Positions 59,148 through 61,014 of a stretch of 64,000 bases of DNA are shown here, piece by piece. Source of the stretch: Polynucleobacter sp. Latsch14-2 (GTDB lineage Bacteria; Pseudomonadota; Gammaproteobacteria; Burkholderiales; Burkholderiaceae). The stretch spans positions 1 through 64,000 of the forward strand of contig NZ_JACVPL010000003.1 in NCBI RefSeq assembly GCF_018881925.1, in the 5' to 3' direction. The position numbers and the translations under genes are program-made. A model generated the notes under the pieces. The model had not been told where the DNA came from. It did no database searches and saw only the letters and a list, made by a program, of their open reading frames with translations. Each line of letters opens with the position of its first letter. Position 1 is the stretch's first letter.

Positions 59148-59567
59148 TTAATTACGGCGACCTGCTCCCGCACGACCCTCATTAGGGCGAGGGCTATTTT
59201 GACCACGTGTGCTGCGTCGGCCAGCACCAGAACCTTCTTTTTTTGTCCTGCCATTCGGCTCACGAAAAGAGCCCGGGGCTTCGATGGTTAAACCGTTATC
59301 GACCATTTTTTCAACGGATTTCATGCCGATACCGCGTACACGTTTTTGCAAATCATTAGCATCTTGAAAATGGCCACCATCTAGTCGTTCAGCGATGATT
59401 GTTTTAGCTTTGGAGGGACCAATCCCCTTAATGCTTTCCAATTCAGTTTGCGTGGCAGTATTGACATTAATTGGTGATGCAATCACTGCCGAAGACGCTA
59501 ACAATGTAGCAAATGCTACGGCCTTTAAAAAACGATGCGCACTACCTAATTTGAATTGATGTGTCAT
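59148..59567 (-). CDS. ComEA-like helix-hairpin-helix secreted protein
   Basis: A 139-residue protein with a signal peptide (cleavage near ASSAVIAS, about residue 31) and a helix-hairpin-helix DNA-binding domain: PINVNTATQTELESIKGIGPSKAKTIIAERLDGGHFQDANDLQKRVRGIGMKSVEKM. A basic, glycine/arginine-rich tail follows. Short periplasmic ComEA proteins bind incoming DNA in natural transformation; that role is inference here. The ATG at 59567 with GGAGAAAG upstream puts the signal peptide at the N-terminus; a start at 59615 would not. Confidence 0.9.
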   Translation of the reverse strand: MTHQFKLGSAHRFLKAVAFATLLASSAVIASPINVNTATQTELESIKGIGPSKAKTIIAERLDGGHFQDANDLQKRVRGIGMKSVEKMVDNGLTIEAPGSFREPNGRTKKEGSGAGRRSTRGQNSPRPNEGRAGAGRRN

Positions 59568-59707
59568 TCTTTCTCCAATCATAAAATCCGCAAACATGAA
59601 ATATGCGCGGATCAATTACAACGATGCAAGATGGGGTCTGTTGACGACCTTCAGAAAAATCAGAAAGTACTGAACATTGACTTAATAAAAGCAGATATCT
59701 CGTGAAA

Positions 59708-59727
59708 TTTTTGATCCACATCAAAAA
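59708..59727. promoter_or_regulatory. FNR/CRP-family operator
   Basis: TTGAT-CCAC-ATCAA (59711-59724) is a perfect match to the FNR consensus TTGAT-N4-ATCAA, and flanking T and A runs extend the dyad to ten bases per arm. It lies in the 247-bp gap between comEA and the UbiM-like gene, centred at 59717.5. If the TATACT at 59776-59781 is the -10 of the hydroxylase, the site is about 70 bp upstream of the start point, an accepted class I activator position. Confidence 0.7.
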
Positions 59728-59750
59728 CTAGGACGCCCAATCATTTTCTG

Positions 59751-59766
59751 AATCAAATAGTTGATT
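59751..59766. promoter_or_regulatory. Second palindrome upstream of the UbiM-like gene
   Basis: AATCAA-ATAG-TTGATT is a perfect 6+4+6 inverted repeat with the half-sites of the FNR-type box in inverted order. It begins 36 bp after the start of that box and sits just upstream of, or overlapping, the presumed -35 region. It may be a repressor site, or a second site built from the same half-sites. Confidence 0.45.
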
Positions 59767-59775
59767 TTGAAAATC

Positions 59776-59781
59776 TATACT
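59776..59781 (+). promoter_or_regulatory. Candidate -10 element of the UbiM-like gene
   Basis: TATACT, with a poor -35 (TCAAAT) 17 bp upstream, 33 bp before the ATG. A strong -10 with a weak -35 fits an activator-dependent promoter, but this is inference from spacing alone. Confidence 0.4.
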
Positions 59782-59814: not shown

Positions 59815-61014
59815 ATGGATGTTGATATTGTTATTATTGGAGCAGGTCCATCAGGACTATGTCTTGCAAGATCCCTAAGTGGCCGAGGATTAAGTATTGC
59901 AATCGTTGAACAACAGCCAATAGATGCTATTGCTAATCCAGCGTTTGATGGCAGGGAAATTGCACTTACACAACACTCAGCCACCGCCATGAAAGAACTT
60001 GGCTTATGGCAACTCATCGAACCCAAGGCGATTTCGCAGTTACGCGATGCCAAAATCCTAGATGGCAGATCCCAGTTTGAAATGCTGATTCCCCATCAAC
60101 TCAGCCAGTACCAAGAACTTGGGTGGTTAATCTCAAACCACATCATTCGAAGGGCTGCATATGACGCTACACAGGAAGCCATCAAACTCAACGACGATAT
60201 CCAATTGATTCCCGGATGCAAAGTCACTAAAGTACAAACAACTCAGCACGATGCCTCTGTCACACTGGATAATGGGGGGAAAATTAAAGCCAAACTCGTA
60301 GTGGCTGCCGATAATCGCTTTTCCACGACGCGTCGCATGATGGGTATTGCCGCCGATATGCATGACTTTGGTCGCAATATGCTGGTCTGCTGTATGACGC
60401 ATGATGTACCTCATGAGCATATTGCATGGGAGTGGTTTGATTACGGCCAGACTCTTGCGCTGCTGCCAATGAACCCAGATCCAACCACCGGACTCTACCG
60501 CAGTTCGGTAGTCATTACAGTGGCAAGCGATGAAGCTGATGAGCTTATGAAATTGAGTCCAGAAGCGTTGTCAAAAAATATTCGAGAGCGATTTGATAAT
60601 CGACTTGGAGATATGAACCTGGTCAGCACAATCCACTCCTACCCACTGGTATCCGTATATCCTAAAAGATTGGTGGCTAATAGGTTTGCCACGGTTGGAG
60701 ATGCAGCAGTTGGGATGCATCCAGTCACTGCGCATGGCTTTAATTTCGGCTTACTGGGCGTTCAGAAGCTTTCTCAAGAAATTTTAAGCGCTCATCAAAT
60801 CGGACAGGATATTGGCGATCAAGTCCTTTTATTGCGTTATGAAAAAATCCATAAGCGTAAAACTCGGCCACTATTTTTAATGACTAGATTGATTACAGAA
60901 ATCTATTCCAAAGAATCTCTGCCAGCAAAATTCGCTAGAACAGCACTTCTGCATGTCAGCGAACGCTTAACGCCATTTAAGAAATCAATTGCCCTAGCAT
61001 TAACAGGCCGATAA
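59815..61014 (+). CDS. ubiM: UbiH/UbiF-family FAD-dependent hydroxylase, probably UbiM
   Basis: Aromatic hydroxylase of ubiquinone synthesis. The 399-residue protein has the N-terminal FAD motif VDIVIIGAGPSGLCLARSLSG, the second FAD region AADNRFSTTRRMMG (Asn where most relatives have the Gly of the DG motif) and GDAAVGMHPVTAHGFNFGL, where the common PxxGQGxN is replaced by PVTAHGFN. That replacement points to UbiM, the versatile hydroxylase of Neisseria-type bacteria, rather than UbiH, UbiI or UbiF; I recall this without a database check. It has an FNR-type box upstream and converges on hldD 8 bp away. Confidence 0.72.
   Translation: MDVDIVIIGAGPSGLCLARSLSGRGLSIAIVEQQPIDAIANPAFDGREIALTQHSATAMKELGLWQLIEPKAISQLRDAKILDGRSQFEMLIPHQLSQYQELGWLISNHIIRRAAYDATQEAIKLNDDIQLIPGCKVTKVQTTQHDASVTLDNGGKIKAKLVVAADNRFSTTRRMMGIAADMHDFGRNMLVCCMTHDVPHEHIAWEWFDYGQTLALLPMNPDPTTGLYRSSVVITVASDEADELMKLSPEALSKNIRERFDNRLGDMNLVSTIHSYPLVSVYPKRLVANRFATVGDAAVGMHPVTAHGFNFGLLGVQKLSQEILSAHQIGQDIGDQVLLLRYEKIHKRKTRPLFLMTRLITEIYSKESLPAKFARTALLHVSERLTPFKKSIALALTGR

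Follow-up and report, generated by a model that had tools for sequence, protein, structure and literature searches.

The ubiM gene of Polynucleobacter sp. Latsch14-2 is preceded by an FNR-type box that, judging from its exactness and its retention in relatives, is a real, conserved FNR-type site of this gene. We consider it probable that the box is the site of the single FNR of the genome and that ubiM is activated by FNR at low O2; the binding, the activation and the low-oxygen role are what we infer from the site, the regulator, the spacing and the conservation. The features concerned are located as follows in the window, which is the whole 64-kb stretch of DNA that was analysed.

59711..59724, no strand assigned: FNR-type site TTGATCCACATCAA, the proposed class I activator site of ubiM, with the exact consensus, kept in 9 of 11 ubiM loci of the genus
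59739..59748, + strand: A/T-rich stretch AATCATTTTC, a possible contact region for RNA polymerase alpha, read from the genus alignment
59751..59766, no strand assigned: second dyad AATCAA-N4-TTGATT, AATCAAATAGTTGATT, exact here and probably due to chance
59776..59781, + strand: -10 element of ubiM, TATACT, in all 9 box-bearing loci of the genus, with a predicted transcription start at about 59788
59815..61014, + strand: ubiM, ubiquinone biosynthesis hydroxylase of 399 aa (NCBIfam NF006593, 531 bits against a cut-off of 420)
59148..59615, - strand: divergent ComEA-like helix-hairpin-helix gene (HHH_3 and TIGR00426 matches), with TTG at 59615 as its listed start

The first-pass annotation had described the gene downstream of the box as UbiM-like, and its score against the NF006593 model confirmed it as a UbiM equivalog, the start codon being the ATG at 59815. 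From its family membership, the product is predicted to be an O2-using ubiquinone ring hydroxylase. The genome also encodes two UbiH-family hydroxylases and two Coq7-like proteins, a complement that would make UbiM an accessory O2-using enzyme. With UbiM counted in, there are five candidate ubiquinone hydroxylases in 2.3 Mb (three of the UbiH family and two Coq7-like), the Coq7-like proteins being the products of two different genes (L093:1486-2115, - strand, and L094:1459-2013, + strand). No TTGAT-N4-ATCAA within one mismatch was present in the 300 bp upstream of the four other hydroxylase genes. A genome search revealed no UbiU/UbiV pair in the genome, a protein of 439 aa being its single U32 protein.

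A pattern scan indicated that TTGATCCACATCAA is an exact TTGAT-N4-ATCAA and the sole exact match within the window. When the 246-bp gap was subjected to 5000 dinucleotide shuffles, 0.3% of them contained an exact box, and shuffled 64-kb windows contained a mean of 0.17, so that the perfect FNR-type box noticed in the first-pass annotation was borne out as exact, rare in shuffles and, as described below, conserved. The -10 of the ubiM promoter is good, but its -35 is poor. When the start is placed 12 bp past the first base of the -10, the centre of the box lies at about -70.5/-71.5, which fits the class I position about 70 bp upstream that had been proposed earlier, and the spacing to the start is, as far as the sequence allows, compatible with activation from this box. 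The A/T-rich stretch AATCATTTTC between the box and the -10 has a AATTATTTTC-like counterpart in several relatives in the alignment of the genus loci.

The occurrence of ubiM in the genus is sporadic (11 of 186 genomes), and the UbiM of Polynucleobacter finlandensis was 83% identical to that of the window. A comparison of the gap across Polynucleobacter genomes, as had been suggested with the original observation, demonstrated that the box is kept in nine of the 11 ubiM loci as TTGATCCA-N-[AG]TCAA, being exact in six (L017, L018, L088, L089, L021 and L091) and having one change, G for A, in three (L019, L020 and L090). The distance from the box to TATACT was 65 bp in seven of these nine loci and 66 bp in the other two, and the majority base of a column was shared, on average, by 7.5 of the nine loci in the box and by 8.7 in the -10, compared with 5.7 between them and 5.3 upstream. 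In the most distant ubiM loci of the genus, L022 and L023, the class I site was absent, L022 ending 81 bp upstream at a contig end; both have a one-mismatch TTGTTCTATATCAA near -48, which is ambiguous. The class II composite described below was found in none of the 11 genus loci. The cysM gene was nearby in eight of the 11 loci and not in three, of which L022 is cut by the contig end; the sporadic presence of ubiM, together with the varying presence of cysM, suggests loss or transfer of the gene together with its promoter.

The box is situated in a gap shared with the divergent ComEA-like gene, for which the ATG at 59566-59568 is a likelier start than the listed TTG, and a ComEA-like match was found beside six of the nine box-bearing loci (in pieces in L089). 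These observations could mean that the box serves the ComEA-like gene and that its nearness to ubiM is incidental. However, the interval between the box and the ubiM -10 is fixed at 65-66 bp, and boxes occur upstream of ubiM outside the genus too. Furthermore, the box is kept at L020, L021 and L091, at which there was no ComEA-like match (nor a cysM match in the case of L091), and its retention in these three of the nine loci indicates that it goes with ubiM. The ComEA-like gene is hence an unlikely target of the box, and service to that gene alone seems to us highly improbable.

The second palindrome noted upstream of ubiM fared differently. The sequence AATCAAATAGTTGATT is indeed an exact 6+6 dyad and the sole exact match within the window, and this exact dyad appeared in 0.04% of shuffles of the 246-bp gap. 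As an unspecified palindrome, however, it is unremarkable, because some perfect 6-bp dyad with a spacer of 0-8 was present in 50% of 500 shuffled gaps. Its half-sites are everted compared with those of an FNR site, and it was intact in only one of the nine box-bearing genus loci, namely that of the species of the window, with two mismatches in the relative L089. As the dyad is not conserved in relatives, a role as an operator or regulator site was rejected, and it is probably a chance sequence.

With respect to the regulator, a whole-genome search found one protein over the cut-off for a Crp-type helix-turn-helix, a second, sub-threshold match being a GntR-family protein. In FNR, four cysteines bind an O2-sensing [4Fe-4S] cluster. 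The CRP/FNR protein of this genome passed the FNR model narrowly (230.4 against 228 bits), and in an alignment its Cys13, 16, 22 and 115 stood opposite the cysteines of the solved FNR 9qmc. Its gene (C33:116671-117441) lies outside the window, a few kb from a COX1-type oxidase gene which, from its neighbours, is taken for ccoN of a cbb3 oxidase. The FNR/CRP-family protein on which the earlier proposal depended is thus present, as one FNR with the four cluster cysteines. The FNR search covered the genome of the window and 121 genus genomes, which hold seven of the 11 ubiM genomes; FNR was detected in all seven, which says little about co-occurrence because it was also detected in 100 of the 121 overall. 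Other CRP/FNR-family regulators share nearly the same site, and further FNR-like proteins are found in other genomes of the genus (e.g., G087, with three matches), so it is conceivable that the box is used by another regulator of the family, such as an NO-responsive one, in place of the O2 sensor. We regard this as quite improbable, considering that the genome of the window has a single family protein over the cut-off and that this protein carries the four cysteines.

The pattern TTGAT-N4-ATCAA occurs 14 times exactly in the 2.34-Mb genome, compared with once for the reversed pattern. By manual reading of open reading frames, eight of the 14 exact boxes are intergenic (L005, L006, L007, L008, L009, L010, L012 and L014) and six lie inside genes. 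The intergenic boxes adjoin ubiM, the COX1-type oxidase gene, a nitronate-monooxygenase-like gene, a PAS sensor kinase gene, an MFS transporter gene, short unnamed frames, an OmpW-like gene after hemN (106 bits, under the OmpW cut-off of 287) and a Usp gene, and genes of a low-oxygen kind are found downstream of some of the other boxes. By eye, the boxes of the oxidase and Usp genes are followed by the -10-like sequences GATAAT and CATAAT at 22 and 21 nt downstream, respectively. At L008:1501-1514, an exact box has a TATACT on the + strand 51 nt downstream, the same class I geometry as at ubiM, and precedes a 66-aa cysteine-containing reading frame without a Pfam match. The 14 exact sites in the genome, six of them inside genes, could speak for the ubiM box being a chance or relict sequence without function; nevertheless, this can hardly be the case, inasmuch as one spacing is held across nine loci while the surrounding columns vary, and similar sites elsewhere are far above background.

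The latter point comes from ubiM loci outside the genus, for which 250 bp upstream was scanned in 78 of 80 loci, L123 and L124 being omitted as repeats of the genus loci L018 and L088. Because the 80 loci are the best ones out of at least 561 relatives, they lean to close relatives; they are also not independent, as genera recur, Hydrogenophaga most. Exact TTGAY-N4-RTCAA was present in 24 of these 78 loci (from the best 80 of at least 561) and a version with one mismatch in 20 more, whereas the shuffle means for the 78 loci were 0.09 (maximum 2) and 1.32 (maximum 4), and the expectations from their flanking DNA were 0.67 and 3.07, respectively. When spacers of 0-10 were compared in the 78 loci, spacer 4 accounted for 24 loci, spacer 7 for one and the others for none. 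The everted pattern was found in none of the 78 (best 80 of at least 561). Moreover, TANNNT was located 21-23 nt after the box in 36 of the 78 outside loci (best 80 of at least 561), compared with 0.18 expected, the offset being 22 in 26 cases and 21 and 23 in five each, with five in total elsewhere in 0-69. Such a spacing would correspond to a class II arrangement with the site near -41.5. As a separate observation, the distance from the end of the -10 to the ubiM start codon was 6-9 nt in 17 of the 36 class II cases, 14 of which had exactly 8 nt (the 17 are L128, L139, L142, L143, L157, L163, L165, L167, L168, L170, L171, L174, L175, L185, L191, L193 and L198). With a -10 so near the start codon, transcripts are predicted to begin at or next to the ATG, and these 17 ubiM transcripts may be leaderless and FNR-dependent. 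For L150, L183, L189 and L192, the tblastn match did not run from the start codon and the distances are approximate, only composite loci having been checked in this respect.

The link is not universal. In 34 of the 78 outside loci (best 80 of at least 561) there was no box within one mismatch, and among the 78 it was absent from all Pseudomonas, Zavarzinia, Paraburkholderia and Caballeronia loci and from part of those of Methylotenera. A further 28 loci of the same family as the window (L095-L122), which were scanned apart from the 78 and with ten further matches left out, yielded no exact box and one with one mismatch, although some of them probably duplicate Caballeronia or Paraburkholderia loci of the 78. 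In a tree of 89 UbiM proteins, boxes were present in both main halves, and the fewest changes of presence were eight. The absence of the box from many lineages, including 27 of the 28 further loci of the family, indicates that the connection between ubiM and FNR is lineage-dependent.

Several correlates of the presence of the box were tried. The comparisons of hydroxylases and UbiUV were made on 50 hand-chosen loci of the 78, of which 31 have the box; the other 19 were counted as lacking it, L180 among them despite a one-mismatch site 230 bp upstream. UbiU/UbiV-like pairs, identified by manual reading of adjacent matches (G529 was counted on its UbiV-like match alone), were found in 10 of the 31 outside genomes with the box, four of the 19 without it and one of 11 in the genus. 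Their frequency is similar whether or not the box is present, so there is no anti-correlation, and the idea that UbiM replaces UbiUVT was rejected. The number of hydroxylases was likewise rejected as a divider, as further hydroxylases accompany UbiM in most genomes, whether the box is present or not. A position of ubiM inside an operon was considered as an explanation for the loci that lack the box; an upstream open reading frame ended within 60 bp in 15 of the 34 loci without the box and nine of the 36 class II loci, by a rough test that is too noisy in G+C-rich DNA to be used.

The sign of the control also needs to be considered. FNR might bind the box and repress ubiM at low O2, so that an enzyme that consumes O2 would be saved when O2 is lacking; anaerobic repression of an O2-dependent enzyme would be nothing unusual. 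In the available part of PMC3688515, moreover, the -71.5 site of E. coli yccA carries a minus sign, which makes the sign of control at -71 less sure. However, the box in the genus overlaps neither the -10, the -35 region nor the predicted start, and the spacing in 36 of the 78 outside loci (best 80 of at least 561) is that of a class II activator site. Therefore, we regard repression as unlikely.

Activation by FNR could proceed as follows. When O2 falls, the [4Fe-4S] cluster of FNR would remain intact and FNR would dimerize; the dimer would bind at about -71 and make a class I contact with RNA polymerase alpha, a domain of which could occupy the A/T-rich stretch between the box and the -10. 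This contact would activate a promoter in which a good -10 is combined with a poor -35, and the resulting rise in the level of UbiM would allow ubiquinone synthesis to keep pace though its substrate O2 is scarce, while a high-affinity oxidase, the gene of which also has an FNR-type site, would still need ubiquinol at low O2. The same link would take the form of a class II promoter, with the site near -41.5, in several other members of the Beta- and Gammaproteobacteria. The first-pass annotation had interpreted the arrangement as an oxygen-dependent feedback. The proposed oxygen-dependent control agrees with the identity of ubiM, the conserved box and the one FNR, whereas the term feedback is doubtful. 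FNR senses O2, not quinone, and the logic would accordingly be one of feed-forward compensation rather than feedback.

If FNR control of ubiM is accepted, it would offer a reason why UbiM stands beside other hydroxylases in some bacteria, and it gives a simple prediction for several species, i.e., the induction of ubiM at low O2 through FNR. More tentatively, it is possible, though we would not quite favor it, that UbiM serves several beta- and gammaproteobacterial lineages as a ubiquinone hydroxylase dedicated to low oxygen, which is under FNR, works beside housekeeping hydroxylases and is probably adapted to scarce O2, with a transcript that in some of these lineages starts at or next to the start codon. 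If that were true, a separate micro-oxic isoenzyme would exist for the O2-dependent arm of ubiquinone synthesis, much as the cbb3 oxidase does for respiration.

A literature search over titles and the starts of abstracts, with most subscription papers outside it, found no report of FNR control of ubiM among the papers listed, and UbiM and Fnr occurred together as whole words only in PMC10470549 and PMC11707229 in the literature searched. In these two papers, as far as their available parts go, the search for FNR sites was confined to the regions upstream of ubiTUV, and the main text of PMC11707229 has UbiM once, in the annotation methods. FNR does not occur in the main text of PMC5069965, the available part of which describes the UbiM of Neisseria meningitidis as the sole ubiquinone hydroxylase there, with O2-using ring hydroxylation shown for this enzyme when expressed in E. 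coli and a broad regioselectivity. The UbiM of the window is of the same enzyme family, but its genome adds the two UbiH-family and two Coq7-like proteins. FNR promoters are of a known kind; what appears new is that they are used, in a conserved manner, for an O2-dependent ubiquinone hydroxylase. According to the available parts of the respective papers, FNR activates ubiUV in E. coli and UbiT is lowered in an fnr mutant (PMC10470549), and the ubiTUV genes are predicted to have FNR sites across Pseudomonadota (PMC11707229). The ubiM arrangement resembles ubiUV and ubiT of E. coli in having an FNR site before ubiquinone-hydroxylation genes and low oxygen as the signal, and differs in that ubiTUV serve an O2-independent route whereas UbiM is among the O2-using hydroxylases; FNR control being documented for the O2-independent UbiUVT route, the ubiM site would extend FNR to the O2-dependent arm. 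Regarding geometry, the available part of PMC3688515 places the site near -41.5 in 19 of 23 FNR-activated E. coli promoters with known starts and at -60.5 in one. The -41.5 geometry of class II promoters such as narG and dmsA described there is like that of the 36 of 78 outside ubiM loci (best 80 of at least 561), while the genus of the window, unlike narG and dmsA, has its site at a class I distance.
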